DNA from: Leptolyngbya boryana PCC 6306
GTDB lineage: Bacteria > Cyanobacteriota > Cyanobacteriia > Leptolyngbyales > Leptolyngbyaceae
Length of the DNA stretch: 64,000 bases
Assembly (NCBI RefSeq): GCF_000353285.1
Contig: NZ_KB731324.1
Location: 18,577-82,576 of the forward strand
Direction of reading: 5' to 3'
Position numbers and translations under genes: made by a program. The notes beneath the pieces are model-generated. The model had not been told where the DNA came from. It was given only the letters and a program-made list of their open reading frames with translations, and ran no database searches. Below are positions 1,984 to 25,200 of the stretch, one piece after another (within the stretch, counting starts at the first letter, position 1; each line of letters starts with the position of its first letter).

Positions 1984-2008
1984 GGTGTGACTTGTTCTGA
2001 TTGAGATA

Positions 2009-2104
2009 CTAATGTTCAGGATTTACTTGCCATGTAATCACAATGATTTCTGCAAGTATTAAGACGGCTAATAGCCACGAAAACGCTTGTAACATGGCTT
2101 CCAT
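2009..2104 (-). CDS. possible 31-residue single-span membrane peptide or remnant
   Basis: MEAMLQAFSWLLAVLILAEI followed by IVITWQVNPEH gives one hydrophobic segment. The same frame is open upstream and encodes a second hydrophobic stretch (TWFTFLYLALGVCLTAIALE), but a TGA at about 2188 cuts it off from the nearest upstream ATG. The original gene may therefore have been a two-span membrane protein that is now broken. No family is recognised. Confidence 0.25.
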   Translation of the reverse strand: MEAMLQAFSWLLAVLILAEIIVITWQVNPEH

Positions 2105-2209
2105 CGTCCAGTTCTGACTCTCAAGCGCGATCGCCGTCAGGCAAACTCCAAGCGCTAGATACAGGAAAGTAAACCAGGTAGATCATTTCATTACTTTCTC
2201 CGATGAAGC

Positions 2210-2518
2210 TTATTCTCTGTACCAGACACGCACACATTGAAAGCAATTGATTGCAAGACCCTGGCTGATCATCACTGGGTGGAAAGCATTACTGGTCGTC
2301 ACTCCGTAGACATCATCACTGGTGCCTTCGATGCGATCGGGTAAAACAACGGTTTCAACATTGATTACCTGTATCGTTGTACTTTCGATCCACTGATTTA
2401 CAGTACTAACAACATCAGAGAAGGATTCATAATCGGAAGCTCCGCCGAAGGGTCCCCGTTCAGTAATTCGAGGCGCAAAATCTTTGTACTTAATCAAAGC
2501 CACTTCATCTTGTCTCAT
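2210..2518 (-). CDS. hypothetical protein, 102 aa
   Basis: ATG at 2516-2518 is preceded by a good ribosome binding site (AGGAG about 8 bases upstream), which supports real translation. The protein is soluble and acidic in its middle, starting MRQDEVALIKYKDFAPRITE, with no membrane segment, signal peptide or catalytic motif that I recognise. It lies 107 bp downstream of the SpoIIM-like gene on the same strand and may be a separate unit or the tail of that operon. Confidence 0.55.
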   Translation of the reverse strand: MRQDEVALIKYKDFAPRITERGPFGGASDYESFSDVVSTVNQWIESTTIQVINVETVVLPDRIEGTSDDVYGVTTSNAFHPVMISQGLAINCFQCVRVWYRE

Positions 2519-2625: not shown

Positions 2626-3321
2626 CTACAACAACCATTGGGTCAGCGGAGGAACCAGGTAGCGCAGCGAGAACGCCTCCCAGATCGCGCCGACGATGAA
2701 CAGTGGGAGCGTGGACAGACTCAGCCAACCGAACTGTTGCAGCCCACGGACGTAACCCTGACGATGGTTCCGAGTGCCGATGGTGGCGGGGCGAACCCAA
2801 GACCGACCCAGGATATATGCGCCAAACATCAGGAGGGCGTAAGCTTGGAATTCGATGAGTATTGTCAGCGAGTGCGGGATCAGTGCCACCGCCATCATCT
2901 TGGTAGTCGGAGCCATTGCTAAACCCAGAGTGAACGTCTTATACGCAAACATGGCGATACCAGCAAAGGGAACGATCAGCGAAGGGAGCACGATCCACAG
3001 CGCGCCGGTCGTGAGGTTGACTCCCAGGATAGTCAGCGAGAACAGCCAGGGGTTATTGAATAGCGATCGGACAAGAGCCGCCGTTCCGTTGTCTTCCAGG
3101 ATGGCTGCCTGAGTTGCGCTCAGGTTGGGGAAGACCATCGCCACTACCAACCCGATGATGACTAAGCCATACACAATGGCGTTGATAGTGAGGTAGGCGC
3201 GAAAATTAGTGCCAATGATCTGAAAGGGTTTGCGAAGAAATCGCCGAAGCGGGTCTTTGGCACTAGGAGTAAGCGATCGTTGTGGAGACTGGTCTTTGGT
3301 GGCGATCGTTTTGCGTGACAT
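2626..3321 (-). CDS. SpoIIM-like (DUF95) integral membrane protein
   Basis: The 231-residue protein has a polar N-terminus of ~40 residues and then about five hydrophobic segments. The segment around residues 80-150 (GALWIVLPSLIVPFAGIAM) and the Gly-rich stretch before the last helices resemble the stage II sporulation protein M family. In cyanobacteria this family has no sporulation role and its function is unknown. ATG follows GGAG at a suitable distance. It is the last gene of a run of four membrane-protein genes on the minus strand, 53 bp after the third CPBP gene, which suggests co-expression. Partnering with the CPBP proteins is my inference. Confidence 0.65.
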   Translation of the reverse strand: MSRKTIATKDQSPQRSLTPSAKDPLRRFLRKPFQIIGTNFRAYLTINAIVYGLVIIGLVVAMVFPNLSATQAAILEDNGTAALVRSLFNNPWLFSLTILGVNLTTGALWIVLPSLIVPFAGIAMFAYKTFTLGLAMAPTTKMMAVALIPHSLTILIEFQAYALLMFGAYILGRSWVRPATIGTRNHRQGYVRGLQQFGWLSLSTLPLFIVGAIWEAFSLRYLVPPLTQWLL

Positions 3322-3374
3322 GTTTTAGCTCCAATATTGGGTGATGGCTACAGTGATGCTTGCCAGCAAAAAGC

Positions 3375-4166
3375 TTAGGCAGATCTTGCCAGCAAAAGGC
3401 TAAGAGCAAAGGAAAAGGCATGAAAGCTGACATGGGATAACATCGCAGCCTCAAGCGAGTATTGCCAAAAGAGCCAACCAAACGCAATGCCAGCAATCCC
3501 ATTGAGTAATATCGCTCGGATAATCACAACTGGAGTGAGGGGAACGATCGCGGCAGTCGCTGGCAGGTGTAGCAGTCCAAATACCAACGCGGCTAGAACG
3601 ATCGCACCTTGATAAATTCCTTGACTTGGCAGCGTAACGCCTTGTTTTAGACCTTTCCACGCGATCCAAACAAGCAGCGACATTAAACCCCAACGCATCA
3701 AAATTTCCTCAGTGATGCCGCCATAGAACATTGCTGTGAGCAAATTCAACCAACTTCGTTCTGTATTATTGGCTGCCCGTAGTGCTTCAGGTAGGGCAGG
3801 TTGCATCAACCGATCGAGCAACAAGAGAACGAGCGCTGCCGCTGCGCCCACACCCAAACTCCACTTCATCTCAACAGCAAAAGATAGAGACTTAGTGGTA
3901 TGAAACACCCAATGATCAACCAAATGGGAGCGTAATCCAACACGGTAGGCACAACCAATGCCGATCAGAATGCTGATTGCCAGTAGAACTGAATACTGTA
4001 GTCCTTGCAAAAGCATTAAAATCCACAATGGAGGCACTTTTTCGATTGTTTCTGGAGACAGTTTCGCTAACTGTTGCTCGATTAAAGGAATAGACGTGAC
4101 CGTAAACATCACAATTCCCACACTGCCCAATACAAATAAAATCCCGAATTGTTTCAGAATTGCCAT
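3375..4166 (-). CDS. CPBP family intramembrane protease-like protein (263 aa)
   Basis: A polytopic membrane protein with all three motifs of the CPBP/Abi family (CAAX-prenyl-protease-like, PF02517): EE at 153-154 with R158 (EEILMR), F196-x3-H200 (FGLLH), and H245/H249 in HVSFHAF. In the structurally known relative Rce1 the Glu and His residues form the active site in the membrane. Bacterial members include bacteriocin-immunity and regulatory proteases, so the substrate here cannot be told. The start ATG follows GGAG by 8 bases. It lies between a SpoIIM-like gene and two more CPBP genes with gaps of 28-53 bp. Confidence 0.85.
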   Translation of the reverse strand: MAILKQFGILFVLGSVGIVMFTVTSIPLIEQQLAKLSPETIEKVPPLWILMLLQGLQYSVLLAISILIGIGCAYRVGLRSHLVDHWVFHTTKSLSFAVEMKWSLGVGAAAALVLLLLDRLMQPALPEALRAANNTERSWLNLLTAMFYGGITEEILMRWGLMSLLVWIAWKGLKQGVTLPSQGIYQGAIVLAALVFGLLHLPATAAIVPLTPVVIIRAILLNGIAGIAFGWLFWQYSLEAAMLSHVSFHAFSFALSLLLARSA

Positions 4167-4194
4167 TGGTTTAATCTCCAGATGATCTGTCCTA

Positions 4195-4917
4195 TTAGTT
4201 CATGCCAGCAATTATCATCACCGGGATTGTAGGCAAATTGAAAACGACGTGAACAACGACAGCAGTCCAAATTGATCCGCTATGGCGGAAGATCTCGGCA
4301 GTAGCGAGACCAGCCACTATAGCTGCGGGAAAGACAATGTTGATGCCATGAACAAGGGCAAAGATCAGGGTGCTACCCACAACCCCAATGAAAGGACCAT
4401 AGCGCAGCAGCGCGTTGGTGACGACCCCCCGAAAGAGCAACTCCTCGCCGAGGGGCGTGACGATTCCAAGGAAAAATGTTGCTAAAACCAAAGATAGTAC
4501 TCCGCCGCTACCGCCCTCTGCGTACACACTCTGGACACTGTTATTGTTCCCGGTGATCTGAATCCAACCCAGAACAGCCAGCCCTTTGAGTACGAAGGCA
4601 ACCAGTCCGACTCCGATCGCGATGAGTAACCAGCGCTTAGAGACCGGACGCAAACCAAAGGCGTTCAGGGAACGAATCCGCAGTAGCACTGCTGCTGCAA
4701 ATCCGGCAATTCCAGCGATACCAGAGAGCGCGGTGAAGACCAGTCCGTAAACCACGGGGTTAAGACCGAGCCGCTTGAGTTGCGAGCCAATCCCGATTCC
4801 CACGATCGCGAAGACGACAAGACCGACGGCGATTTCAGACCAACCCGGACGGGAGGCACGGTTTGGTGCGATCGCGGCAGGGGTCTTTTGTGGGTGGTTA
4901 GAAGACACTTTGGACAT
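4195..4917 (-). CDS. CPBP family intramembrane protease-like protein (240 aa)
   Basis: The polar N-terminal ~25 residues are followed by six or so hydrophobic segments. The CPBP signature is complete: E158-E159-LLF-R163, F186-ALV-H190, and H223 with N227 in HVVFN. The arrangement G-E-E-x3-R then FxxxH then HxxxN is the canonical bacterial form. A GGAG sits just ahead of the ATG. Intergenic distances of 28 bp (downstream gene) and 35 bp (upstream gene) support an operon. Sequence similarity to its two CPBP neighbours is limited to the motifs, so these are not recent tandem duplicates. Confidence 0.85.
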   Translation of the reverse strand: MSKVSSNHPQKTPAAIAPNRASRPGWSEIAVGLVVFAIVGIGIGSQLKRLGLNPVVYGLVFTALSGIAGIAGFAAAVLLRIRSLNAFGLRPVSKRWLLIAIGVGLVAFVLKGLAVLGWIQITGNNNSVQSVYAEGGSGGVLSLVLATFFLGIVTPLGEELLFRGVVTNALLRYGPFIGVVGSTLIFALVHGINIVFPAAIVAGLATAEIFRHSGSIWTAVVVHVVFNLPTIPVMIIAGMN

Positions 4918-4952
4918 GGTGATGAACTCCTTTGATCGAGTTGCTGATGGGT

Positions 4953-5915
4953 TCAGGAATCGACGGGTTCGGCTGCCTTGTCACGCTTGAACACCTTGTA
5001 AGCGATCGCCAGGAAGACGGGAATCAGCACGAGAGAGGTGATGTCGTAGAATCTTGCGTGGTACTCACTGATGCTGAATAGAGCTGGCGCGGAGAAGAAG
5101 CTTCCAGACCAGTTGAACAAGAGAAAATACGCGATGTTGTTGGCAAAGTGTGCGCCGATCGCAAGCTCGGTCGTGCCGTCGATCAATGAAACGATCGCAT
5201 ACAGCAGACCCGTGCCGACGAAGATTCCGACGAACATCCCGATCCAGCCACCCTCCTGTGACTCTGGGTTAGTGGCGTGCGGCAGGGTGAAGATCACGGC
5301 TGAGACGATCGCCAGAAACACACGGTTCGACCAGATTAGGCTTGCACCCTGCACAATGTACCCGCGAAAGAAAAGCTCCTCGGTGGTCGTCTGGATTGCA
5401 GTGAGGATTAGCGCGATCGGTACAAAGAGCGCGAACGTCTTGAGGTCGGAGTTGAAAGAGAAGCTATCGGGGTAGAGGAGGTACTGCCCCAACCCGCCGA
5501 GCAGTACCCAGGGCACAAATCCAGCCACGAAGCCGTGACCGACGCGCCGCCAACTGATCTGCTTCCGCGCCGTGATCAGCGTCCGGGGATGGCGCTGGTG
5601 GATGAGGGTGACGGCGATGAGAATTCCTGCGAGGAACACCGGAAAACCCGCCATGGACACGACGAAGCCCCCCACAGGACCAAACGCCGCGAAATCCAGC
5701 CGACCAAGCGCTGCGGCACCCTCTTTGCCGCCGAGCGCCAGCGCGACAAGCGCACTGGCAAGGTTGGCGACGACCATCCATGCAAAGAGGATAATCATCA
5801 GCCCCAGAACATACCGCCACCACCGATACTTACCCCACCCAGCAGCCTCGACGTAAGTCGCGTCTTTCACTTCCGTTCCGATTCTCGGCGTTCCTTTGGT
5901 TGCTTTGAATCTCAT
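4953..5915 (-). CDS. CPBP family intramembrane protease-like protein (320 aa)
   Basis: The longest of the three CPBP proteins carries E179-E180-LFF-R184, F209-TLP-H213 and H256-FAN-N260, plus about eight hydrophobic segments. ATG is preceded by a strong AAGGAG. It is the first gene of the four-gene membrane operon. Its DNA is visibly richer in G and C than the neighbouring genes (long runs such as gcgacgagcgcc-like codons on either strand), and its protein style resembles CPBP proteins of high-GC bacteria, so acquisition by transfer is plausible. Its substrate is unknown. Confidence 0.85.
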   Translation of the reverse strand: MRFKATKGTPRIGTEVKDATYVEAAGWGKYRWWRYVLGLMIILFAWMVVANLASALVALALGGKEGAAALGRLDFAAFGPVGGFVVSMAGFPVFLAGILIAVTLIHQRHPRTLITARKQISWRRVGHGFVAGFVPWVLLGGLGQYLLYPDSFSFNSDLKTFALFVPIALILTAIQTTTEELFFRGYIVQGASLIWSNRVFLAIVSAVIFTLPHATNPESQEGGWIGMFVGIFVGTGLLYAIVSLIDGTTELAIGAHFANNIAYFLLFNWSGSFFSAPALFSISEYHARFYDITSLVLIPVFLAIAYKVFKRDKAAEPVDS

Positions 5916-5966: not shown

Positions 5967-6254
5967 TTACGTGGGAGAACGCTTACACTGAATTGCTTTC
6001 ACATTTCGTAGATAGCTCAACTCAGGCTCAAAATCTGTAGGACAGAAAGCATACACAATGTCCTGAGGTTGGCTAATGACTAAACGGTAAGCGGGTGGAA
6101 TTCCTTCAGAACTTTCAATCACTTCAATTCTGGGAATCACCTGTGGACTAATTTGAGCCAGAGATGGGAAACTGAACAGCAACAATAGGCTGACCAATAT
6201 TGTTGCTGAAATAACTCGCGGGGATTGTTGAAGCCTGGACAGAATCTTATTCAT
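5967..6254 (-). CDS. small exported hypothetical protein (95 aa)
   Basis: I chose the ATG at 6252-6254 because it places a classical signal peptide at the N-terminus: positive MNKILSRLQQSPR, hydrophobic VISATILVSLLLLF, and a likely cleavage after SLAQ near residue 34. The mature part of ~60 residues has two Cys (C71 and C90), possibly a disulfide in the periplasm. The longer upstream frame overlaps the next gene and has no signal character. No family is recognised. Confidence 0.6.
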   Translation of the reverse strand: MNKILSRLQQSPRVISATILVSLLLLFSFPSLAQISPQVIPRIEVIESSEGIPPAYRLVISQPQDIVYAFCPTDFEPELSYLRNVKAIQCKRSPT

Positions 6255-6301
6255 TAGAAGTATCCTTATGAGTTTTTTCGGAAGTTTTTCTGAATGATTA
6301 A

Positions 6302-6760
6302 TTAGGATTTCCAGGGAAGCGGCGATCGATAGGGATTCTCCCGCATATCCAGCACTTCCCAAGTCATAGGGTTGACCTGTCCTGTGACGGAGATGTCGTA
6401 GCGTTGTTGTAAATCTCTCACCGCAGACTCTGTAATCGCACCAAATACACCATCAACAGCAGCACCATTGGGAGTTCCTAACCTGACTCCGGCAGCATGC
6501 AAAAAACCATTATCCGAGAGAATTTGCTGCAACATTTGTACCTCTCTACCGCGATCGCCCCGTCTTAGGGTTGGCAACGACAGATCCGTGTAGGCGGTTG
6601 CAACGAGAATAGGAGATTGTTGCGGTGGAGGGGTGGCGATCGCTGGGTGCGTTCGTGAACTCCCAATCACTCCTGTCACCGTGATGATTGATAGAGTAGT
6701 TTTAGCAAATATCGCAGTGATTCTAGAAGTTAATCGTCGTATTGTGGTTAATTGCATCAT
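6302..6760 (-). CDS. exported peptidoglycan-binding domain protein (PG_binding_1)
   Basis: The 152-residue protein begins with a basic and hydrophobic N-terminus that ends near AIATPPPQ (signal peptide or anchor), then a single three-helix peptidoglycan-binding domain at about residues 65-135: LRRGDRGREVQMLQQIL, VDGVFGAITESAVRDLQQ and VTGQVNPMTW. Such domains hold proteins on the cell wall; no catalytic domain is attached here. The gene lies 47 bp upstream of the small exported protein gene on the same strand, so both may act in the envelope. Confidence 0.85.
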   Translation of the reverse strand: MMQLTTIRRLTSRITAIFAKTTLSIITVTGVIGSSRTHPAIATPPPQQSPILVATAYTDLSLPTLRRGDRGREVQMLQQILSDNGFLHAAGVRLGTPNGAAVDGVFGAITESAVRDLQQRYDISVTGQVNPMTWEVLDMRENPYRSPLPWKS

Positions 6761-6825: not shown

Positions 6826-7383
6826 TTAATGACTTGCAGCAATCATAGCTGTCGTCAATTCTGTCATTTTCCAGCGTCTGGTATAGCGAATGTTGTTGAT
6901 AAATAGGGCTGGAGCCGTTTTTACTCCACTGTGTATTCCACCTTCGATATCTTCATTGATGCGATCGATATGGACATGTTTAGACAAGTCTTTGAGAAAC
7001 TGCGGAATATCAAGCTCCAAATCGTTGGCGTATTCTAGAAGGTAGCCGTTCTCTAACTTCTGTTGATGAACAAATAAAGTATCGTGCATTGACCAAAACT
7101 GTCCCTGGGCAGCGGCGGCTTCAGCAACTTCGGCGGCTCGTTGAGCATGAGGATGAATCTGTGTTTGCGGAAAATGACGGAAGACAAAGCATAAATAATC
7201 TTCTCCAAGAGAAGCACTATGCTCTTGTTTGAGCCGTTTAATCAGCTTGTAAGCGTCCGCACTTTTAGGGTCTTGATAGTCTCCATACATCACCAACATA
7301 ACCTTTGCACTCAGCACACCTTGCATCCAATCTTGGGTTGAAGGAGGGACAAGTAAGGGACTGTAACTACTATCGTCGTTCAT
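6826..7383 (-). CDS. DsbA-like thioredoxin-fold protein without the CxxC motif
   Basis: The thioredoxin-like fold of the DsbA group is recognisable: the strand MLVMYGDYQDPKSAD where relatives carry a CxxC after the D-(F/Y)-Q, the helical insert with FWSMHDTLFVHQQKL, and the cis-Pro segment TAPALFINN near the C-terminus. The catalytic cysteines are replaced (QDPKSA), so it cannot perform thiol-disulfide exchange in the usual way. ATG at 7381-7383 gives 185 residues. A longer frame starting at TTG 7446 would add a Cys-rich piece (FCQTCPECSAGC); no signal peptide is visible in either version, so the protein is probably cytosolic. Confidence 0.7.
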   Translation of the reverse strand: MNDDSSYSPLLVPPSTQDWMQGVLSAKVMLVMYGDYQDPKSADAYKLIKRLKQEHSASLGEDYLCFVFRHFPQTQIHPHAQRAAEVAEAAAAQGQFWSMHDTLFVHQQKLENGYLLEYANDLELDIPQFLKDLSKHVHIDRINEDIEGGIHSGVKTAPALFINNIRYTRRWKMTELTTAMIAASH

Positions 7384-7485
7384 TTTTCTACGTTTGCATC
7401 CAGCAGAACACTCTGGACAAGTCTGACAGAAAAGCTTTCCTGTCAAATTTTCCCGGGCTATCGTTCTATAAAACTCCTAACGATT

Positions 7486-8166
7486 TCATCTGACATTGAC
7501 TGCACCCAGAGTCGCGGCTGTTTGAACGGTGAAAATTGCTTTTGAAACTGCTTTGCCGACCAACTCCCCTTCTGCGATCGCCTTAATTCGCGATCGTGCT
7601 TCAGGACGTTCTTCAGGCGTGAACACCGCATCGGTCAGGTGAGAGGCTTGCATCAAACTAATCAATGCTGCCATTCGAGAATTCAGTCCAATGCCTTCTA
7701 ATACGGCTGCACGAACTTGCTGGACAATCTCGCGTTGAATGGATTCATCGGTGAGAAAATATCGCTGCGTTGGGAACAGTCCAAAAATGCGTTGCTCTTG
7801 TCGTTCTAAAACACCTAAATCAACTAAGTTTTGCAACACAATCGTTTGAATGCCCAGGTATCTTCGTCTCCAGCGAGTCACCCAGAACCTTGCAGTTCGA
7901 GGACGAGACGATGCTAGGACTTCACTGAGGCGTTGATCTAAGAATTCATTGCCTGTATTGCCTGCGGTTCCTGCGGAGTTGCGCAAAGCGCTAACCGCAC
8001 CGATCACACGATTATCGTTGTCGATCTCAAGTTTGCCTTGCAGTACTAAGTCTAGTAATAAAGAACCAACCAAGCCATAATCGAGCGCAGAGTACCAAGA
8101 GAAGCGAGTTTTCCCAGTTTGAGGATTGAGTGCAAGAAGAATTAAGTCCTGTGAAAGATATTGCAT
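7486..8166 (-). CDS. GPP34-family protein (Golgi phosphoprotein 3-like)
   Basis: The 226-residue protein from ATG 8164-8166 (AAAGGA just upstream) matches the GPP34/GOLPH3 family: N-terminal LSQDLILLALNPQTGK, then ALDYGLVGSLLLDLVLQGKL, a WVTRWRRRYLGIQTIVLQNL segment, a VLERQ...FGLFPTQRYFLTD strand pair and a C-terminal helix bundle. Eukaryotic relatives bind phosphatidylinositol 4-phosphate on Golgi membranes; bacterial homologues have no established role. The Trp/Arg-rich segment could contact membranes (inference). About 270 bp upstream, up to the regulator gene, hold no gene that I can see. Confidence 0.8.
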   Translation of the reverse strand: MQYLSQDLILLALNPQTGKTRFSWYSALDYGLVGSLLLDLVLQGKLEIDNDNRVIGAVSALRNSAGTAGNTGNEFLDQRLSEVLASSRPRTARFWVTRWRRRYLGIQTIVLQNLVDLGVLERQEQRIFGLFPTQRYFLTDESIQREIVQQVRAAVLEGIGLNSRMAALISLMQASHLTDAVFTPEERPEARSRIKAIAEGELVGKAVSKAIFTVQTAATLGAVNVR

Positions 8167-8437
8167 GATGAATTCCTTTCGCATTGAGCAATTGTTATAG
8201 CTCAGTAACAGCAGCATCGAATCGTGTTGGATCTATAGTGATGAAAGTAGAGATCCTAGATTTATCTTTTGACTGCATGACAGTTTGCATACATTCAATA
8301 TAGGAAATTGCTTTCAGTCCGTCGTCTACAGTGGGTTAAATTTTTTACAGTACAAATTGATATAGTAACTCTGCGATCGCAAAGTAGAAGACTGGTTATA
8401 ACTTAAGTTAGAATCCGAATTCGATCGAAAGTACACT

Positions 8438-9061
8438 CTACAAACTGACAATGCCGCGTTTAACGGCAACAATCACAGCTTGAGTGCGATCGCCCACATC
8501 TAACTTATTCAAAATCCGATTCACATGAGATTTAACCGTACCTTCCCCAATACTCAAAGCAGTGGCAATCTCAGCATTACTCATTCCCTGAGCCAGTAAG
8601 CGGAGTACTTCTAGCTCTCTTTCACTCAGTTCTGGATTGCTGAGGCGTTGTGCTAACTTTGCGCCCACATCAGGCGGAATATACTGCTGACCCCGATGAA
8701 CGGTGCGAATCGCATTCAGAAGCTCGTCCGGTTCAGTTTCTTTCAACAGATACCCTTTGGCTCCTGCCTGCAATCCCCGATAAATATCTTCGTCACTATC
8801 ATAGGTGGTCAGCACAATAATCCGAGCGGATTTAGCGATCGCACAAATTGCAGTAATGGCGGCAACTCCTTCCATTTCTGGCATTCGCAGATCCATCAGC
8901 GTGACATCCGGTTGATGTTCCTCAAATAGCGCGATCGCCTGTTCCCCATTTTCCGCTTGGGCAATCACGTTCATATCTGGATCACGGTTAATAATTGTGG
9001 CTAATCCTTGCCGAAAAATGGCATGATCGTCTGCAATCAGAACCCGAATGGCTTGATTCAT
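8438..9061 (-). CDS. NarL/FixJ-type response regulator
   Basis: A receiver domain (residues 1-120) with the acidic pair D11-D12 and phospho-acceptor D57 (TLMDLRMP) is followed by a LuxR-type helix-turn-helix (ELSERELEVLRLLAQGMSNA... VKSHVNRIL). I took ATG 9059-9061 (MNQAIRVLIADDH), which aligns with related regulators; a start at 9091 would overlap the kinase gene by 23 bp. It lies 7 bp downstream of the histidine kinase gene, its obvious partner. The protein is close in sequence to the regulator at 63071-63697, so the two kinase-regulator pairs are paralogous. Confidence 0.93.
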   Translation of the reverse strand: MNQAIRVLIADDHAIFRQGLATIINRDPDMNVIAQAENGEQAIALFEEHQPDVTLMDLRMPEMEGVAAITAICAIAKSARIIVLTTYDSDEDIYRGLQAGAKGYLLKETEPDELLNAIRTVHRGQQYIPPDVGAKLAQRLSNPELSERELEVLRLLAQGMSNAEIATALSIGEGTVKSHVNRILNKLDVGDRTQAVIVAVKRGIVSL

Positions 9062-9068
9062 CGTGTTG

Positions 9069-11411
9069 CTACTCCCGATTAACGGTGACAATCATCTGCG
9101 TTCCCTGTCCAGGTTGACTCCTAATTGTGAGTTGTGCGCCGATGCGCTCTGCCCGTTCGCTCATGCCGAGTAAGCCAAACCCCTTAGAGGAGGGAATGCT
9201 ACCGACTCCAAAGCCCTGCCCATTGTCTTTCACGCGCAAGCAAAATTGATCGCGATCGTAGACTAGCTCCACTCGGATTTCGTCAGCGTTGGCGTGCTTG
9301 ATCGCATTGGTTAATGCTTCCTGCCCAATTCGCAGTAGGTTACTCTCTACTTCAGTTGATAGAGTATACGCTGTCCCCTTGACTTCATAATACAAAGTGG
9401 TATCGTTTGCAGCCGCTCTGATTTGAGTTACGAGACGATGTAGAGCGTTCTGTAGACTGCCTTCTTCTAAAAGCTGAGGACGGAGTGCAACGACCGATCG
9501 CCGTGCTTCAGTCAGTCCAGTTCGCGCCAATTCTTTGATCAGGTCTAGGTGCGCCTGGGTTGCTTCTACATCATCCGTTAGCACCTGGTTTGCCGCTCCG
9601 ACTTGAGCCAGAATGCCTGTAAACGACTGAGCAAGGGTGTCGTGAATCTCGCGTGCCATACGGTTGCGTTCTTCCAGAATCGAGGTGGCTTCTGCTTGCT
9701 TTTGCGGCGTAATATCTCGCGCCAACCAAATCACCTGCTCATGCCGAATCGGGGAAATGCGAGCCGAAAACCAGATTTCTCGTCCAGCTATCCACTGACT
9801 GTATTCAACTGTAAGTACTTGTTGAGTTCTCAACACCTGCTGAATATAACTCAGGAATTCATCAGCTTGTTCCCTGTCATAGAGTCGATGCAGTGTCTTA
9901 CCAATATACTCCTCCCGATATAACTCTCCATAGGACGGATTCCCTTTGATTGCACAGATCAATTGCCCCTCACCATTGAAGATACACATTGGATCGGGAA
10001 TGGCTGAAAAGAGCGATCGCAGTTCTGCTTCAGAGGCTTGCAACGCGACTTCTGCCTGTTTACGATCGCTAATATCCGCAATCACTCCTTCGATGTAGTC
10101 ATCCCCTGTATTCAGATAAGAAGAGAAAAGCCCCCAAAAGACTGTCCCATCTCGTTTTCGCATCTGTGCTTCATAGCTTCGCACTTCCCCATCCCGCTTC
10201 ATCACCTCGATGCCTTGTTGGCGATCTCTGAGATTGACCCAGTAGCCTGTAGTGTGTTCAATCCCAATCATCTCCTGGGGTGAATCAAAGCCAAACAGAT
10301 CGGCAAAGCGTTGATTAGCATCGAGAATTAATCCATCACCGATACGAGTACGGTAGATACCAACCTGCGAGTTTGCAAAGATGTTGCGGAACTTGGCTTC
10401 ACTGCGTTGTAATGCCTCTTCTGCTTGTCTACGCTGAGTGGTGTCATTGCCCACCGATAAGATTTCAACGACATCTCCCTGGTCATTAAAAATAGCTTGA
10501 TTCGACCAGACCATCCAAATGCGCCGACCGTCTCGACACAGGTTTTCACCCTCGCCTTGCGGGTACGATTTGGGATTGCGAAGTAAATCATGGACAAAGG
10601 GTTTAACATCGCGTCCAGAGATTTCGATGTCTGGAATGATGGTTTCAAATAAGGTTCGCCCTAAAATCTGATGTTCTTCATAGCCCAGAAGTTTTATCCC
10701 ATAATCATTGATGTAGCGAATCCGTCCTTGCGGATCATAGCGAATGATGACCGAATTCGCGGTTTGTAGCAGGTTGCGATAATTTGCTTCACTTTGTCGT
10801 AATGCGTCTTCTGTTCGTTCGCGATCGATGATCTCCTGCTGTAGAGCTTGAGTTTGTTCTTCTAGTTTCCTTTCCAGTGTTTCGGCATAGTTTGCTAACC
10901 GTTCATACCGCCGAGTATTTTCTAGTGAAATTGTTGCTTGAGCTATCAACAGTTCAAGGATTTGTAAGCGATCGCGGGTAAACACTCCGGTACTGAGATT
11001 GTTCTCTAGATAAAGGATGCCGATCAGCTGACGTTGCTGAAGAATTGGCATACACAGGAGAGATCGCGTCTGGTGGTGTTGGATGTAAGGAGCAGTTGAA
11101 AAAGACAATTCGGTGACTGCATCATCAAGCACTAAAGTTTCTTGAGTGCGTTCTACCGAGTGAATGACGGAGACAGGAATCGTTGCACAATCAGCAACAG
11201 CAAGCTTTTCCAGGTCACACTGTCTATTTCCGCTGCATTGAGCGACTACAATGAGTTGATCCTCTTCCAAGAGAATCAGAGCGCCCCTTTCGGCTCCTGC
11301 ATATTCGATCACCCCCTGCATCAATGTGGCTGTTAATTGCTCAAGATGGATCATTAAATGCTCCTCCGACGAAGGACTGTTAGCCACCTCCCAAAGTATA
11401 TCGCTTGACAA
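9069..11411 (-). CDS. GAF-PAS-PAS-PAS sensor histidine kinase (HisKA_3 class)
   Basis: A 780-residue soluble kinase: GAF domain (~20-165), a coiled coil with EETQALQQEI-like heptads (~170-205), three PAS domains with PAC segments (~205-330, 335-450, 460-575), the dimerisation helix with phospho-acceptor H590 (REIHDTLAQ), and an HATPase_c domain (N-box ALTNAIKH, G-box DNGQGFG). This is the NarX/DesK-type layout that signals to NarL-type regulators, and one follows 7 bp downstream. No transmembrane segment is present, so it senses an internal or diffusible signal. The N-terminal GAF resembles those at the C-termini of very large cyanobacterial Ser/Thr kinase hybrids; the protein may have arisen from one. 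Confidence 0.92.
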   Translation of the reverse strand: MSSDILWEVANSPSSEEHLMIHLEQLTATLMQGVIEYAGAERGALILLEEDQLIVVAQCSGNRQCDLEKLAVADCATIPVSVIHSVERTQETLVLDDAVTELSFSTAPYIQHHQTRSLLCMPILQQRQLIGILYLENNLSTGVFTRDRLQILELLIAQATISLENTRRYERLANYAETLERKLEEQTQALQQEIIDRERTEDALRQSEANYRNLLQTANSVIIRYDPQGRIRYINDYGIKLLGYEEHQILGRTLFETIIPDIEISGRDVKPFVHDLLRNPKSYPQGEGENLCRDGRRIWMVWSNQAIFNDQGDVVEILSVGNDTTQRRQAEEALQRSEAKFRNIFANSQVGIYRTRIGDGLILDANQRFADLFGFDSPQEMIGIEHTTGYWVNLRDRQQGIEVMKRDGEVRSYEAQMRKRDGTVFWGLFSSYLNTGDDYIEGVIADISDRKQAEVALQASEAELRSLFSAIPDPMCIFNGEGQLICAIKGNPSYGELYREEYIGKTLHRLYDREQADEFLSYIQQVLRTQQVLTVEYSQWIAGREIWFSARISPIRHEQVIWLARDITPQKQAEATSILEERNRMAREIHDTLAQSFTGILAQVGAANQVLTDDVEATQAHLDLIKELARTGLTEARRSVVALRPQLLEEGSLQNALHRLVTQIRAAANDTTLYYEVKGTAYTLSTEVESNLLRIGQEALTNAIKHANADEIRVELVYDRDQFCLRVKDNGQGFGVGSIPSSKGFGLLGMSERAERIGAQLTIRSQPGQGTQMIVTVNRE

Positions 11412-12218: not shown

Positions 12219-12959
12219 TCACTCGGATTGCTCCAGAGCAGATCTAGCCCTAGCCAAATATTCCATCATCGCTGCATCGACCATTCCTCGACTAACCACT
12301 TCAGGCTGCTCCTGTTGCCACATCCGGTTTAAGGCTTGTTCAACTCCAGGATCACCTCCTGTAAACGCTTGGATTAATTCAATTGATCGTCGCGCTAGAG
12401 CTTTAACGGGTGCGGCGGTTAGATCAGTCCCTTTCGCCATCTCTACTTGGACTTGATCAAATAAATCTTGCCAGTCAGCTTGAACTTGCTGAATCCGTTC
12501 TTCGCCTAATGATTCCTGACGTTGCCGAAGGGATTTCAATTGTTCAGGGGTGTAATATCGTTCCAACATATTCATTGCCTCAATGGTTTGGATGACTGCT
12601 TCCACAGATACGGTTTGCATCGAACCCACCGCTTGAGCGATCGCGTCCAGTCGATTGAGCAATTTTTGAGAAAGTTCAATTTGCTCACGCAGGCGGGCAG
12701 TATGGAGTTGAATAATGTGATCGAAGGAAAAACTGTGTTGCTCTAGGCACTCACGAATTTCTTCGAGGGAGAAGCCAATTTGCCGCAGCGATACGATTTG
12801 CTGCAAGCGAATGATGTCTTCCCTGTCATACAGTCGATAACCTGCTTCAGTGCGATGAGAGGGCGAAAGTAAGCCGATTTCGTCATAGTAATGTAACGTC
12901 CGTACCGAGACCCCAGTTTGTTTTGCGAGATCACCGACCTTGAGTGCAACTGATTGCAT
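12219..12959 (-). CDS. MerR-family transcriptional regulator with TipAS-type effector domain
   Basis: The N-terminal winged helix-turn-helix (residues ~4-72, VGDLAKQTGVSVRTLHYYDE... EAGYRLYDREDI) is a clear MerR domain. It is followed by the dimerising coiled coil and a C-terminal helical domain similar to TipAS, which in Streptomyces TipA binds thiopeptide antibiotics. ATG at 12957-12959 follows an ideal GGAGGGG. The gene lies 29 bp downstream of a ruined antibiotic-nucleotidyltransferase gene on the same strand, so it probably once controlled that gene in response to a drug or related small molecule. MerR regulators usually bind and distort the promoter of their own operon. Confidence 0.88.
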   Translation of the reverse strand: MQSVALKVGDLAKQTGVSVRTLHYYDEIGLLSPSHRTEAGYRLYDREDIIRLQQIVSLRQIGFSLEEIRECLEQHSFSFDHIIQLHTARLREQIELSQKLLNRLDAIAQAVGSMQTVSVEAVIQTIEAMNMLERYYTPEQLKSLRQRQESLGEERIQQVQADWQDLFDQVQVEMAKGTDLTAAPVKALARRSIELIQAFTGGDPGVEQALNRMWQQEQPEVVSRGMVDAAMMEYLARARSALEQSE

Positions 12960-13467
12960 CTTCCCCTCCTGACCTAGTCCAGACAACCTTAAGCTGTGAA
13001 TGCATCTATGGTAAGAACCTCACGCTCCGTCAGGGTCAAGGGGTGAAGCCAAAAAGTTTTGAACTGCTCATGTAAGTTTTGTGTTGCAGTTTCACCAAAC
13101 GATTCTCTGGCAAGTGCAAAACTCGAAAAATCTTTGGGTCGCCACTCGCTCTGTGGAACTTCTTCAATGTAGTAAAAATAATCCCAGAGAATGGCTGCCC
13201 AACTGGTGCAGCGTAGCATCCTACCTCCAAGACTTCCTGTGGGTTCGGATGGGCAGGTTCCCGGAGGTAAGCCTTCAAGCTCATAGCTCTCTTCAACGCG
13301 AATACAGGGTTCACAGTCCAGGAGAATGCCCTGCATTTCTGCCAGAAAACCGTAGGAGGTTTGTTCTGTAATGACACCACCAAGGGAGTGTAGTAACGCC
13401 AGAAACTCAGTAATGCGATCGCCTGGATACACAATATCAATATCCTTATGCTCACGGGTGATGCGAT

Positions 13468-14453
13468 TTAATTTGGCATCGGTGACTTCGGCTCACGCGA
13501 AGCGTGTTCGCCCAGCCACCCTGCAACCACAATGGCAGATTTATCTGATCTGCTGCCGAAAATATAGCCCGACCTAAGTACGTTAGGACTATCTCTAAAA
13601 GCGACATCGACACAGTCGCGAAAGGTCTCAAATTCATCCCAGCGTTGCCGCATCCAATTCTTCAGCACAAACCACCATCGCTCGATTTTGTTCAAGTCTG
13701 GTGAATAGGGCGGTAGATACCAGAGTTCACACTCAGCTTGCGCCACAATTTCATCCATGGCTTGGGAGCGATGGAAACTGGCATTGTCAATGATAATCAC
13801 ACTGCCCGGTTGCAGTTTTGGTAGTAGACAGGTCTCTAGCCACACCTCAAACAAGTCTCGGTTGCATGAGCCAGAAAACGTCATTGGCGCAAATAACTTG
13901 CCTTGCTTGAGCGCGGCAATCCAACTGACGCGCTCAGTGCGCTTACCGGACTTGAGGGCATCACAGCGTTGCCCAAGCTTGCTGTAGCCATAGGGATACT
14001 CGTCCCGATTGTCGATGCCTGCTTCATCAACGTAAACAAGTTCAGCATCCATTTTGGTCTTTAATCGTTCCTCGAACTCAACCCGCTTGAGTTCATCCCG
14101 TTCGCGATAGACGTACGTCTTTTTTTTCGACTCATGCCCAGCTTTTTGATCGCTGCACTCATATTTTGCTGCGTCACCCCGTCGCCCCATAACTTTGCCA
14201 TTTCTGCTTGTGTCTTGCCGTTATGCTGGACAACAAGGGCTTCAAAGCGTTCCCAATCCGTGATTTTATGCCGACAGCCTTGCTGGAAGTTCGTAATCGC
14301 TTGGCAGTCTCCGGTCTCCTGTTCGCGTTTGACCCAGAGGTCGAGCGTATTGCGACTGATATGGAACATCTTACTGACATCGGTTTTCTGTTCTCCGCGC
14401 TTGACCGCAGCAACGGCTTTGCGGCGCAAGTCTTCACTGTAAGGAGCAGGCAT
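13468..14453 (-). CDS. IS630 transposase, two frames joined by -1 frameshift
   Basis: Frame 1 (14061-14453) encodes an N-terminal helix-turn-helix (MPAPYSEDLRRKAVAAVKRG) and frame 2 (to 13468) the DDE core: YVDEAGID, IIIDNASFHR and the Glu of DLNKIERWW. They overlap at a run of eight A on the coding strand (T8 at 14120-14127), where a -1 slip joins SRKK to KTYVYRERDE. Programmed frameshifting at such runs is known for this family. Frame 2 has no stop inside the element, so its last ~30 residues come from the flanking target gene. The transposase looks potentially active. Confidence 0.82.
13481..13508. repeat. 28-bp palindromic insertion in the nucleotidyltransferase gene
   Basis: The bases between codons for GGWA and DAKL contain the perfect hairpin CACGC-gaa-GCGTG. 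Removing them (or 25 of them) restores a continuous nucleotidyltransferase frame. A similar core (TTCGCGAAGCG) occurs at 46789-46799 next to the Crp/Fnr gene. This fits a small dispersed palindromic repeat of the kind found in cyanobacterial genomes. Confidence 0.55.
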
Positions 14454-16231: not shown

Positions 16232-19200
16232 CTATTTGTTTTCCAAGTACTTGATAGTACCATCCTGCTGACCTACAATGGCATCAGAATCACCATCGCC
16301 ATCAATATCGGCAAAGGTGATTGAACTATTTTCACTGATGCCCGTGATATTACTGAATGGATTAGCAGTTACGCTTTGAGCAGTAAAGCTACCATTGGCA
16401 TTACGGTAGTAGGCAATGCTGGCTTTTCCATCTCCAATGAACATATCGAGATCTCCATCCTTATCGATGTCAGCAAAGCCATAGCGAGTGTTTACACCCA
16501 CGCTCATTCCATTAAAGGGATTGGCGGTTCCCGTCACTTGGGCAAAGCTACCGTTGGTATTGCGATAGAATGTAATTGAGCCTGTTGTACTGGTCGAGCT
16601 ACTCGCATTGGTGATGAAAGCATCTAAATCCCCGTCACCATCAATGTCTGCAAAAGTAGGAGCACCCGTTGCGAAAGTCAATCCAGAGAACGGATTCGTG
16701 TCAGAGGTAAAGGAACCATTATTGTTCCGGTAGAATCCAATGATACCCTTAGAGCCACCAATGAAGGCATCTAAATCGCCATCCCTATCAATATCTGCAA
16801 AGGAAATACTGCTGTTATCGCCCCAGTCGATTCCATTGAAGGGATTCGCTGTTCCCGTGACTTGAGCAAAGGTTCCACTGGTATTGCGATAGTACCGGAT
16901 GGTGCCATCTGATGAACCCACGAAGGCATCTAAATCACCATCTTTGTCAATATCTGCAAATGCAGGAGTTGCTTTGTCACCAACATCTAATCCATTGAAG
17001 GGATTTGAGGTGCCAGTCCGTTCTCTAAAAGTCAATCCAGTGATAGACAGAGAGACCGCCGCAGTGCTGATACCACCTTTACCATCGCTAATTGTATAGG
17101 TAAAGCTATCACTTCCAGTTCCACCCATCTGAAGAGATGAGAACTTACCATTGGGATTGTAAGTAAACGTGCCGTTGCTATTGAAGGTCAATTTTGCTCC
17201 AGATGTGAGCGTAATCGTAGAGCCAGCTGTAATTGTGGTTCCATTGACTTGAGTGATACTCAAGGTATCGCTCGTATCAACGTCGGAGTCATTACTGAGA
17301 ACAGTCACTGTAATTGCAGTGTCTTCATCAGTTGTAGTACTATCAGCTGTTGCCACAGGTCCATCATTCACGCCAGTAATGGTTAGTGTTGCTGTTGCAG
17401 TACTAGTGCCACCTTTACCATCGCTAATGGTGTAGGTGAAGCTATCTGTTGCTGACTTGCCCGTACCGAGATAATCAAATTTGCCATTGGGATTGTAGGT
17501 AAAGGTGCCTGTGCTATTAAGGGTCACTTTCGCTCCCGAAATCAAGGTAATTGTTGATCCAGAGGTGATACTGGTTCCATTGACATGAGTGACACTCAAA
17601 GTATCTCCCGTATCAACATCCGAATCGTTGCTCAATACAGTTAACGTGGCAGACGTATCTTCGTTAGTTGTACTACTATCAGCCAGCGCTATAGGTCCAT
17701 CATTCACGCCAGTGATCGTCAAATTAACCGTCGCGGTACTGGTACCACCTTTACCATCGCTAATGATGTAGGTGAAGCTATCTGTTGCTGAATTGCCCGT
17801 GCCGAGATAATCAAATTTGCCATTGGGATTGTAGGTAAAAGTGCCTGTGCTATTAAGAGTCACTTTTGCTCCTGAAGTCAAGGTGATGGTCGATCCAGCA
17901 GTAATGCTTGTTCCATTCACTTGAGTAATGTTAAGAGTATCCCCTGTATCAACATCCGAATCGTTGCTCAATACAGTTAACGTGGCAGACGTATCTTCGT
18001 TAGTTGTAGCACTATCAGCCATCGCTATAGGTCCATCATTCACGCCAGTAATGGTTAGTGTTGCCGTTGCGGTACTGATGCCACCTTTACCATCGCTGAT
18101 GGTGTAGGTAAAGCTATCCGTTGCTGACTTCCCAACACCTAGATATTCAAATTTGCCGTTCGGGTTATATGTAAACGTTCCTGCCGTGTTTAGGGTCACT
18201 TTTGCACCAGAGGTCAGTGTGACAGTTGAGCCAGAAGCGATCGTCGTTCCATTGACTCTCGTAATAGTCATTGTGTCAGCTGCATTAGCATCAGAGTCGT
18301 TGCTCAATGCGCTAATAGTCGTTGTCGTGTCTTCGTTCATCGTGACACTATCGTTCACGGCGACGGGTGGCGTATTCGTGTTCTCAAAGTAATTGATGTT
18401 GCCATCAAATTCACCGATGAAGGCATCTAAATCACCATCGCCATTAATATCAACGAAGGAAACCGTGCTGTTTTGACCCACATCTACACCATTGAAGGGA
18501 TTGCTGGTTCCGGTGACTTGAGCAAAGCTGCCATTGGTGTTGCGGTAATAATTGATCGTGCCGTCGGATTCCCCAATAAAGGCATCGGAATCGCCATCTT
18601 GGTCAATATCAGCAAACGCGATCGTACTGCTATCTCCCACATCTACACCATTGAAAGGATTAGCAGTTCCAGTGACATTGGCAAAACTACCATTGGTATT
18701 GCGATAGAACTTAATCGTACCATCACTTTGTCCCGTGAAAGCATCCAAGTCGCCATCGTTATCAATATCGACAAAGCTTGGAGCTATAAAATCAGCAATG
18801 CCATTGCTCGTGTCAGTAATTTGAGTGAAACTGCCATTGGTGTTTTGGTAGTATTTCAGAACCATCTTGCCATCACCGATAAAGGCATCGAGATCACCAT
18901 CTCGATCGATGTCAGCAAAGGAAATTGACGTATCCGAAAAACCCGATACACTATTCAAAGGATTAGCAGTTCCCGTCACTTGGGCAAAGCTGCCATTGGT
19001 ATTGCGATAGTAGCGGATTGTTCCATCGGATGACCCCATAAAGGCATCTAAATCACCATCCTTATCAATGTCAGCAAACGCTACATTGCTAGAGTAGCCT
19101 ACATCAATCCCATTCAATGAATTATTGCTGCCCGTGCGCTCATAGAAGGTTCCACCACTAATCTTCAGCGAGACGGTTGCCGTACTAGTTCCCCCTTTGC

Positions 19201-22200
19201 CATCACTGACCGTATAGGTGAAGCTATCGGTTCCGGTTTCGCCCATGCCCAATGTGACAAATTTGCCATTCGGGTTATAGGTAAAGGTGCCGTTTGCGTT
19301 CAAGGTCAGTTTGGCACCGGAAGTCAGGGTCATGGTTGAACCTGCTGTAATGACGGAGCCATTTACTTGAGTAATACTGAGAGTGTCTCCAGTATCAATA
19401 TCGGAGTCATTGCTCAGGACACTAATCGCGGTAGACACATCTTCATTAGTAGTAGCGCTATCTGCTTTTACAGTTGGCGCATCATTGACCCCAGTAATAA
19501 CCAGAGTAACGGTTGCAGTGCTGGTGCCACCCTTGCCATCACTAATGGTGTAGGTGAAGCTATCCGTTGCAGTTTTTCCAGTTCCCAGGTACTCAAATTT
19601 ACCATTGGGATTGTAAGTAAGACTGCCATTAGCATTCAGGGTAACTTTTGCCTTGGAGCCAATCAAGACACTAGAGCCAGCCGTTAGAGTTGTACCATTC
19701 ACTTTCGTGATACTCAAGGTATCACCCGTATCAATGTCGGTGTCGTTGCTTAGAGCAGCGATCGTCACTGTACTATTTTCCGTGGTGGTAGCGCTATTCG
19801 CACTAGCAACAGGGGTGTCATTGATCCCATTAATCGTCAAGGTAACAGTTGCAGTGCTCGTACCGCCTTTGCCATCGCTAATCGTGTAGGTGAAGTTATC
19901 GGTCGCCGTTTTGCCAATTCCCAAATACTCAAATCGACTATTGGGATTGTAGCTGAAGGTGCCATTGGTATTAAAGGTCACTTGCGCACCGGAAGCTAGA
20001 ACGCGAGTTGTGCCAGATGTGATAGCTGTGCCATTGAGATGGGTGATTGTGAACGTATCGCCTGTATCAATATCAGAGTCATTGCTAAGGGCAGCGATCG
20101 TGACACTGGTCGCCTCATCAGTTTCGACGTTATCTTTTGTTGCTATCGGCACATCATTGACCCCATTAATCGTGATACTGACAGTCGCAGTATCTACCCC
20201 ACCCATGGCGTTTTTCACGCTGTAGGTGAAGCTATCGGTTGCAGTTTTGCCTGCACCTACAGCGTCAAATTTACCATTGGGATTGTAGGTGAAGGTATTG
20301 TTGGCATTGAAGGTCACTTGAGCACCGGAGTTTAAAGTGACAACGCTGCCTACAGTTGCGCTGCTGCCATTGACTGTACTGATGCTAATCGGGCTGAAGC
20401 CATCCCAGTTGATGTCATTGCCTAGTACGGTAAAGATCGTACTCGTCTCTTCGGTGGTACTAGCACTATCATTTCCAGCGATCGGGGTAATTTTCACCGT
20501 TTCGCTATTGCTGTAAGCGATCGTACCTAAACCTCCACCGGTAATCGTGAGATTGCTGAAATTCCAACTCGCTCCTGAGCGGGTAGGTTTGACTAAGAGC
20601 GTATCATTACCCCCACCAGCATCCACAGTGATATTTAAGGTGGAATTGAGGCTGTCGGAACTGCTGAAGAGGGTGATAGTGTTGTTGCTGTTATCGCCTG
20701 TAATAGTCACAGCACCGCTTGTTCTACCAGAGAAATCGACACTTAGATCATCAATGGTTCGCAGATAGGAATCCTGCGTTGTGTTCAGTTTGACTTCTGA
20801 ATCATTCGTCATTTCCAAATCCAACGTATTAGTGCGGGTTCCCACTGATATTGCATTCAGTGTTAGGAAATCACTTTGGAGATTGGCTTCGGCATTTTGA
20901 TTGGCATCGACAATGGCACCTGTAGAAGACAAGCTGACGATATTTTCAGCATAGACTTGATCAACATTGAGGGTACCGATCGCGTTGGCAACATAGATAT
21001 TTTCCTTGGCGCGAGCTGTTAAGCTACCACCGAGAGAACTAATTTCCACAATGCCGCGCATGGTTGCAGTTGAGGATGCATCATTCCATTGGCGATTGCT
21101 GCCATAGTTCATGGAGACGTAATCTTCATTACCGTTCCAATTATTGGGTTCGCCTGGTGCCCAGTTCCGGTAGGGGGTGGTTTCACCACTTGCCCAGGCA
21201 AAGGTGCCTTCCGTCACTTTGTCGGTTAAGCCAATCCAGAAGCTTTCAGTGTTGCTAAAGGTGTTGCGTAACCATTGCTCTTCAGCCGCATCGTTGATTG
21301 TCACCAGGTTGCCACCTACTGCTTGGGCTGCGGTTTGTGCGATTTCCCAGGTAGCGATGGGGTTGAGCAAATAGAAATGACCGTTGTATTCCTGAACGTT
21401 CAACTCAATGATGCCGCGCATGGTTGCAGTTGAGGACGCATCATTCCACTGGCGATTGTTGCCATAGTTCATGGAGGCGTAATCCTCATTGCCGTTCCAA
21501 TTATTGGGTTCGCCTGGTGCCCAGTTCCGGTAAGTAGTAGTTTCACCATTTGCCCAGGCGAAGGTGCCTTCCGTCACTTTGTCGGTTAAGCCAATCCAGA
21601 AGCTTTCGGTAGTGCCAAAGGTCGTTCTGAGCCAAGCTTCTTCGGTTGCATCATTGATCGTTACGAGGTTGCCACCGAGACTTTGGGCATAGGTTTGGGC
21701 AGCTTCCCACGTTGCCGAGCTACTGAGCAGATAGAGCTTACCGTTGTGGTAATAGATGTTGTCCTTCAGGTCGATCGTAATTGGAGCGGTGCTGCTACCT
21801 ACGCTGGAACTTCCCGCTTCAAGGACTAGATCACCCCCTCCAACGACGTTGACTGCTCCCGTTGTAGCGACGTTGACAATGCCTTGAGCAGCCTTAATCC
21901 GCACTTCACTGCCTGCTTTAACTTGGTCGAGGTTGATATCTTGCTCCGAACCGAGAAAGACATTCCCACCAGCAGTGAGGTTGATTTCGCCAGTTGCATC
22001 AATATCTACATCTTGCTTCTGACTGATAACGACTTTGGAAATCGGAGCAGTCGATTTTTTAGGATCTAAAATCTTATTTCCAGCCGCATCGTAGTAGGTG
22101 ATGTCATCCCGTTCTGCATAGCTAAGGGCAAGGCGTTGGGCTTCGGTGAGATCCGTTGCCCAGTTTTTGATACTTGACCAATTGTTGATCGTAATGCTGC

Positions 22201-25200
22201 CTTCGGTACGCCCGATCGCACCGCTAGCCGTAACAGCGACATCACCGCCTGCTGTAATGTTGGCTTCTTCGATCGTGTATTGCGTATCTGTAACAGAGCC
22301 AAACAATCCCGGAGCGACGGTATTTTTCAGTTGATCCAGGCTCCACTTACTGCCCTGGCTGAGACTGCTCTGTTGACTGCTGCTGACGTTATATTTCTGT
22401 GCAATCAGATTCGGATCGTAAATACTGATATTCGTCAAGTTCTTGCCTGTAAAGTCGCTGTCCTTAAATAGGTCAGTGATTACGGTAGACATGTAGGCAT
22501 CGTCGCCCGTTAGAGTCACACTACCACCACTAAATAGGGTATGGAGGGTTTGATATTGCGTGGTTTTCTCCGCCGCCATTGCTATGATTTCGCTATCGCT
22601 GTAACCTTGAGCACGCAGTTGAGTCTTGGCAGTATCACTGTAGCTGTAGGAGAAATTTGCGTTGTAGGCATCAGCAGTATAGACGGTTTGACCCGTTGAA
22701 TTCACACTCGATTTAACATTGCGGTAGTTCCAGTAGGTTTCGTACAGGTGCTCTGCCTGTTGCTTGAAGCTCGCGATCGACTTAGAACTACGATCGGTGG
22801 TCAATCCAATTTGTGACCAGAGGCTTTCGAGTTGGGTTTGGGAATAGGGATCGATCGTTTCAGCTAAGTTATTGTCAACTAACCCGCCACTAGAGACCGT
22901 CAGATTAACATTACCTCCTGCGGTGGCACTAACCAGATAGAGATCTCCATCCGTTTCCTTGAGGTAGATATTGTCAGCAGCATCCAGGGTTACACCTGAT
23001 GTTCCATCCGCAGTGCTGAGTAGTGTTGCGGTTATTGAAGTGACCATACCCATGATCGTTGTCGTTGTTTTGAAGCCAGAGTCAACCCGCAAAGACTGAG
23101 TAGAAGAACCGATCGAGCCAGTTTCGGACGTGAGATCGATCGTGTAAGCCTTGATGTCATAGCCGCCCGCACCGGCACTTAAGAGAGAGCCATTGGTAGA
23201 CAGCGTGACGGTACCAGAAGACGAATAGCTTTCACCGAAAATCGTCACATTACCATCAATGTCGGTAATCGAGACATTACCCGTTGCATTGAATTGCAAT
23301 TGACTCACATCGGTACTGAGATCCATCAGCTTGCTACCCGAAAGGGTTAGGCTATTACTAGTGATCACACCGTTAGTAGACAGGTTATCAATGTAGCCTG
23401 AAGTAGATTTAAGGGTAGTGCTACCACCTTTATTACTGATTGAATTTAGCAACAGGATGTCTTGGGTTGAGGTGATGCTGACTGAACCCGTGTCATAGCC
23501 GATAAAGGTCACCGCAATAGGTGAATCGGCATCATAGCTGTGGGTATTGATCGTCTTTTTACCCTGCTGGTAGGTATCACGGCGATAGTAAGTCTTTTTC
23601 TTGAAGATCCACCAGCCGCTGGTCTCTGTCCAGGTATCTTGATCGACGAGTTGATTACTACTCGTAGTCACCACTTCACGATTGTAGGCATACAGATTGC
23701 TGTTGGTAGTAGTTTCGATATAAGCCCCTTCTAGGAGTGGAGTTTCATCCAGTAACATCGTTGTAGTTTCGATCGCAGTTCCTGGATCTTTTGCAAGGTC
23801 ATCAGAACCCCAAAAACTAGATTTACCATAGGTTTTCTGAGTTTCCGTGATACTAGACTGTCCTGTGACCCAGGTGTAACGCTGATTGGCAAGAGGATTA
23901 TAGCTGGCAGCACGGGTATTCGATAAGGTTGTCGTCTTGCCGCTAGTCGTGGAAGTATCGGTGACAGTGACGTTACTACCAACCCGAGTGTAGGTTGTCA
24001 TTAAAGCTTCACCATTTGCACCCGTTTTAGCGGTATCAATGATTTGTAACTTGCCTTCGATACCACTGCCACCTGCATCAATGCTATTGATGGCAATGTC
24101 ATAGTTCGTGTTGTTCGTGATATTGATGCGACCAAACCCATCCATCACCCTCAGGTTGCCATCTCCGGTGCTGATGATGTGTCCCACCAATTGCATATAG
24201 CCGCCTTCGATCTCAACATCATCTAGTTCGATACGATTTTCTTCAGCGTTATATTTCGCGTCAATGCTGGTACCATCTGTATCGGTTGATAGCGTGAGAT
24301 ATTTGGTCGATGGAGTTTTACCGGCAGCAATTGTACTGTCGTAGCTGGATTTGAAGGCGCTGATGGTGGCATTGAAACTGTTGCTGAGGGTGAGAGTACG
24401 ATCGGGGGTTCCGCTTTGGATCACACCATTGATATTCAGATAGCGGGCGTTGATAAATACGTTACTGCTCGCAGTGATACTGCTGCTACTGCTCGGATCA
24501 ACCGATGAAGAGCCACTGGTTTCTGGTCCATTTTCAAAACTAGTTGCAGTGCTTGAGAGTTGGCTACGAGGATTACCACCCACATGCAGGAAGCCTAAGT
24601 CGTCTGTCAGGCTGAGGCTATGCTCAGTACCGCTACCTGTACTAGTGAGATCAATTTCTTTTGAGGAATTGAGCGTCAGGCTACCACCGCTGCTGAGAGT
24701 GACATAGCCGCTAAATCCCCCACCAAATATAGGTGCATAAATACTGGCTAGCTTAATCGTGTTGTTGTCAATCTTATCGACGTAATAGGTGGCAGAGATT
24801 GAGCCATTGGAACTGCGGTAAACTACTTGATCGCCATCGCTTAAGCTATGTCCTGTTAGTGTCAACTGGCTACCGCCACTCGACAAAGTATAAGTTTTGT
24901 TGGCGAAGGCATTATCCTCAGTCGAGGCGAGTTTAATCGTGTTGCTATCAATCACGATCGCGTAGTAGCTCCGATTGTCGGACAAGCCACCGATACTGGT
25001 TCCAGTCCCATTGCTATAAAAGACTTGATCACCTGTGCTCAGACCATGATTGGAGATCGTAATCGTATTCTGGAACGTGCTGACCTTACTCGAAGGATTA
25101 AATTCAAAGACTGTTCCATCATCAGTCAGGACAAAATCGCTGCCAGATTGGATGTCGATTGTTTCTGCGTTGAGGCTACCATAGACAATCACACTACCTT

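Follow-up and report, generated by a model that had tools for sequence, protein, structure and literature searches.

CPBP/Rce1-like glutamic intramembrane proteases (PF02517) are characterized by a shared domain and by the catalytic motifs of the family. In Staphylococcus aureus, lipoproteins are N-acylated by a two-component acyl transferase system, and CPBP proteins are discussed in the paper on that system (PMC7387801). Proteins of the SpoIIM/DUF95 family (PF01944) form a second relevant group. At the level of gene organization, integron cassette arrays and CALINs are composed of genes of mixed function and variable content which all lie in one direction, and resistance or stress islands on conjugative plasmids combine horizontal spread with regulators, beta-lactamases and insertion sequences at their edges. 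The locus described here shares features with each of these and departs from each of them in particular ways.

It is located in Leptolyngbya boryana PCC 6306 within a stretch of 64,000 nucleotides (contig NZ_KB731324.1, positions 18,577 to 82,576), referred to here as the window and used for all coordinates. A sequence-only reading had taken three CPBP genes together with a SpoIIM-like partner as one unit. The four genes, which encode membrane proteins, do lie head to tail with the short gaps then described (35, 28 and 53 bp in the order CPBP1, CPBP2, CPBP3 and SPM, the SpoIIM-family protein), as open reading frame and gap coordinates agree. They are nevertheless the middle of a longer array and represent a membrane-protease block inside it, with no closed four-protein system. 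The array reads, all on the minus strand, histidine kinase, response regulator, GPP34, DsbA, peptidoglycan-binding protein, sec98, CPBP1, CPBP2, CPBP3, SpoIIM, P100, the remnant of TM140 and RidA (Table 1). TM140 is intact in most relatives and has decayed in the window.

Table 1. Genes of the array and its upstream neighbours in window coordinates. Pfam gathering scores are 22.4 bits for PF02517 and 26.9 bits for PF01944.
Feature	Coordinates	Strand	Basis
Aminoglycoside-adenylyltransferase-like protein	12989..13432	minus	PF10706 25.8 bits, cut-off 21
MerR regulator with TipAS antibiotic-recognition domain	12219..12986	minus	TipAS 40.5 bits
GAF/PAS histidine kinase (HisKA_3)	9069..11411	minus	domains; precedes regulator in 13/13 loci
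NarL-type response regulator	8438..9091	minus	Response_reg and GerE domains; ahead of nearly all array genes in scored loci
GPP34 protein	7486..8217	minus	PF05719 169.3 bits
DsbA/thioredoxin-like protein	6826..7446	minus	PF13462 38.9 bits
Peptidoglycan-binding domain protein	6302..6760	minus	PF01471 56.4 bits
sec98, small protein with hydrophobic N-terminus	5967..6275	minus	10 loci, strand always the same
CPBP1, putative Rce1-like glutamic intramembrane protease, 320 aa	4953..5915	minus	PF02517 44.2 bits
CPBP2, putative Rce1-like protease, 240 aa	4195..4917	minus	PF02517 64.2 bits
CPBP3, putative Rce1-like protease, 263 aa, HxxxH third motif	3375..4166	minus	PF02517 43.0 bits
SPM, SpoIIM-family membrane protein, 231 aa	2626..3321	minus	PF01944 27.8 bits
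P100, 102 aa, fold unassigned	2210..2518	minus	no Pfam match; adjacent after SPM in 20/31 scored loci
TM140 membrane-protein gene remnant	1990..2209	minus	partial TM140 match adjoining P100
RidA-family protein, 133 aa	1582..1983	minus	PF01042 94.6 bits; array member in relatives

The region is flanked by an InsA-type gene (373-672) and an IS630-type transposase gene (13468-14453). A second InsA-type copy is found beyond the window. Two further open reading frames were observed nearby: one on the plus strand (978-1343), without a Pfam match, resembles the C-terminal part of an SDR protein and is probably a fragment, and a repeat-rich one on the minus strand (16232-34579, 6115 aa) apparently encodes a giant surface protein. 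The TipAS-MerR gene and that of the aminoglycoside-adenylyltransferase-like protein lie directly upstream of the kinase gene and on its strand. The former has an 84% identical relative in locus L082 and is a possible upper end of the array. The latter has no match in other array loci and may therefore be a chance neighbour.

The three CPBP proteins belong to the CPBP/Rce1-like family by domain score and conserved motifs, and are putative proteases. The earlier claim that their catalytic motifs are all kept is borne out by alignment with relatives, in which EE179-180xxxR184, F209xxxH213 and H256xxxN260 of CPBP1 are invariant, as are EExxxR, FxxxH and HxxxN of CPBP2 and E153, E154, R158, F196, H200, H245 and H249 of CPBP3, whose third motif is HxxxH. 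What distinguishes them from the family at large is the presence of three divergent members side by side. Their strong divergence had also been noticed; pairwise BLASTP gives no match better than E 0.03, so that they do not represent a recent tandem array. None scores above the cut-off of the named NCBIfam CPBP families. The genome contains nine PF02517 matches in total, three of them in the block, and selection on each of the four block genes is purifying (median dN/dS 0.23-0.32).

SPM resembles the SpoIIM/DUF95 family in a score just above the cut-off and in an all-helical membrane model (AlphaFold2, pLDDT 86.4), and nothing seen at the array locus suggests sporulation or a bacteriocin cluster. 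A fold search of the model against the PDB gave no significant match, which weighs against the part proposed for SPM below. A similar search with P100, for which the predicted model is poor, also returned nothing significant; sequence searches of solved structures gave nothing useful and PHROGs and Rfam no match. The closest non-cyanobacterial relatives of SPM are uncharacterized actinobacterial proteins (about 47-64% identity, 12 genomes), and most of the Actinobacteria examined have MerR genes close to SPM. In five of these loci (L064, L066-L069) the SPM relative comes after an uncharacterized protein of family f37, about 226 aa long, and in L064, L066 and L067 a MerR gene lies on the opposite strand. 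An actinobacterial origin of the whole block was considered and rejected: despite the SPM relatives, CPBP1 reaches at most 35% identity across 297 genomes sampled from one class of Actinobacteria, so at most single genes came from there.

About 97 relatives were searched with each of the four block proteins and gave patchy matches. A scan of genomes with SPM yielded 12 loci in Actinobacteria and 27 on arrays of the cyanobacterial type, two of the latter coming from a MAG labelled as Chloroflexaceae. P100 occurs in 36 of the 390 cyanobacterial genomes sampled, spread over 26 of 160 genera. Gene order and content were compared over 52 cyanobacterial stretches, in which some genomes are counted twice; genes were called with a greedy script and families defined by single linkage. 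There is a loose common order in which kinase, regulator and DsbA are followed by CPBP1, CPBP2 and CPBP3, often by a secreted S33 or S15 peptidase, and then by SPM, P100 and TM140. Genes of recurrent families are co-directed in 555 of 556 cases, and in 149 of 149 in a P100-anchored set (including 30 anchors), counts which are limited to recurrent families and whose effective number is lower since the sets overlap and genomes are repeated in the first. Conserved co-occurrence of the four genes, proposed earlier as a check, holds for the neighbourhood, which is kept in other genomes, but not for the intact string: among the loci seen, this occurs uninterrupted in the window and otherwise in Tildeniella alone, which has CPBP1 in duplicate. 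In the remaining loci block members are absent, duplicated, or split by genes for S33/S15 peptidases, GPP34, RidA, NmrA and SDR proteins. The kinase and regulator lead the array in the window and in several relatives, and a TetR gene stands ahead of the block in other lineages. Relatives also carry a transpeptidase-fold protein resembling class D beta-lactamase, together with S33, S15 and S9 peptidases.

For most shared array genes dS falls within 0.1-0.5, with values reaching about 1.1, whereas that of the single housekeeping gene used as a divergence control, homoserine dehydrogenase, ranges in the same genomes from 1.5 to saturated. This difference implies that the array moves horizontally and agrees with a hint of transfer in the sequence-only reading. 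Within one genome pair dS varies between array genes, indicating that pieces were exchanged at different times. Relatives of the array are carried by chromosomes as well as by plasmids. Plasmid copies annotated by others lie on pNSMS102 of Nostoc MS1 and plasmid C of Trichormus, each typed as conjugative, and on plasmids from Gloeocapsopsis, Chroococcidiopsis and NIES-970; the Chroococcidiopsis plasmid carries a class A beta-lactamase gene. The array is transferred between distant cyanobacteria, partly via large plasmids. The first block gene had been singled out as rich in G+C, which is confirmed and applies to further genes (GC3 0.73 for CPBP1, 0.67 for SpoIIM and 0.58 for CPBP2, but 0.46 for CPBP3 and 0.42 for P100), an unevenness which fits a mosaic origin. 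The junctions contain common 5′ leaders and pieces of other array genes (CPBP1 with S15 and SDR with POP are examples), which we interpret as traces of recombination and not as the product of site-specific joining. Taken as a whole, the four-gene block is very probably part of a mobile, mosaic, strand-locked cyanobacterial array, which differs from resistance and stress islands on conjugative plasmids by its near-absolute strand lock and by a gene order common to distant cyanobacteria.

The best explanation of the locus as a whole, to which we assign a probability of roughly 0.55, is that the four genes are the membrane-protease block of this mobile array, for which a role as an inducible envelope and chemical-defence module is tentatively put forward. 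A toxic compound or envelope stress would be sensed by the two-component system, and perhaps also by TipAS-MerR, and the array would then be expressed as a single long transcript. Each of the three proteases would have its own targets among peptides inserted in the membrane or proteins held there, and the SpoIIM protein would serve them as a scaffold or partner in the membrane. Secreted peptidases of the S33, S15 or S9 type might finish the fragments in relatives, where beta-lactamases might handle other toxic compounds. From the position, domains and resistance-type company of the genes we infer that the two-component system controls the array, and the same features make a single transcript probable. 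An inducible envelope and chemical-defence function for the block itself is proposed tentatively on these grounds; it is suggested by the resistance-type neighbours, that is TipAS-MerR and the aminoglycoside-resistance-like gene in the window and beta-lactamases and secreted peptidases in relatives. Promoter and terminator matches in the region show no excess over shuffled sequences, which speaks for the model. A search for a conserved motif in the spacer after the response regulator gene showed only general similarity of that spacer. For many genes of the array (SDR, SnoaL/NTF2, RidA, GPP34) a connection with envelope defence is not apparent, which counts against the defence model. One of the two components in S. 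aureus lipoprotein N-acylation is reportedly a CPBP protein; by analogy, CPBP proteins need not be proteases, and this weighs against the proteolytic part of the model. An anti-phage role, also raised earlier, gained nothing from PADLOC, which assigned none of eight array proteins to an anti-phage family.

The main rival reads the array as an operon that metabolizes or detoxifies small reactive compounds, acting through SDR, ADH, pirin, RidA and hydrolases, with CPBP and SpoIIM as accessory or hitch-hiking genes. Among the additional genes of the plasmid copies, those for SDR, ADH, pirin, cupin, RidA and alpha/beta hydrolases are indeed the commonest. However, the CPBP-SPM-P100-TM140 core is kept in lineages with few such enzymes, and the window array carries RidA alone among them, so we consider this a possible but not a favoured reading. 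Circular-bacteriocin clusters include SpoIIM/DUF95 proteins, and the block could in principle belong to a locus for bacteriocin production or self-immunity, the CPBP proteins conferring immunity and SpoIIM being the membrane protein of a circular bacteriocin. A CAAX protease, SilX, is encoded within a bacteriocin region (PMC9298176). The identified array genes include neither a precursor gene nor an ABC transporter, the block genes are separated by 28-53 bp, and no ABC transporter ATPase lies beside the DUF95 gene among the Pfam-identified genes of the window array or the annotated genes of the plasmid arrays, which makes this unlikely. A search with PF09221 (Bacteriocin_IId) found 0 matches in the genome and 0 in the control genomes as well.

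One-by-one site-specific capture, in an integron or an integrase-less cassette cluster, would account for the common direction of functionally mixed genes, and an integron-integrase-like gene (470 bits) exists elsewhere in the genome. It is, however, the sole integrase match above cut-off, about 5 Mb away amid housekeeping genes with no cassette seen. In home-made scans, the initial 16 kb of the window contain no attC-like site, and all array loci together give 35 candidates against 27-32 in shuffles, which is no clear excess, although palindromic ones number 5 against 1-2. Furthermore, 39% of the gaps are shorter than 60 bp, and array order is conserved, unlike that of cassette arrays. The integron reading is accordingly disfavoured, and highly improbable in our estimation. 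The integron-integrase-like gene itself (contig C1 5090372-5091313) is full-length and stands alone, and no palindromic attC-like sites were seen in its surroundings. C-terminal sorting, in which a CPBP enzyme would cut CTERM-type anchors in the manner of a myxosortase, is the least credible alternative, as the weak matches of CPBP2 lie far under the curated cut-offs (25.8 against 75 for MrtJ, 24.4 against 130 for MrtS, 21.8 against 200 for MrtA and 25.5 against 81 for TIGR03008).

We found no prior description of the array in the open-access literature. It is conceivable, although doubtful, that it exemplifies an undescribed cyanobacterial gene platform which is strand-locked and keeps its order, takes in, exchanges and drops genes without integrase or attC, and combines one two-component switch with a CPBP-SpoIIM core. 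In its layout the mobile array is similar to cassette arrays, whereas its mechanism is apparently a different one. It joins three CPBP types, a SpoIIM relative, P100 and TM140, all families of unknown function, in one transferable unit with a likely regulator, and this linkage makes their function testable.
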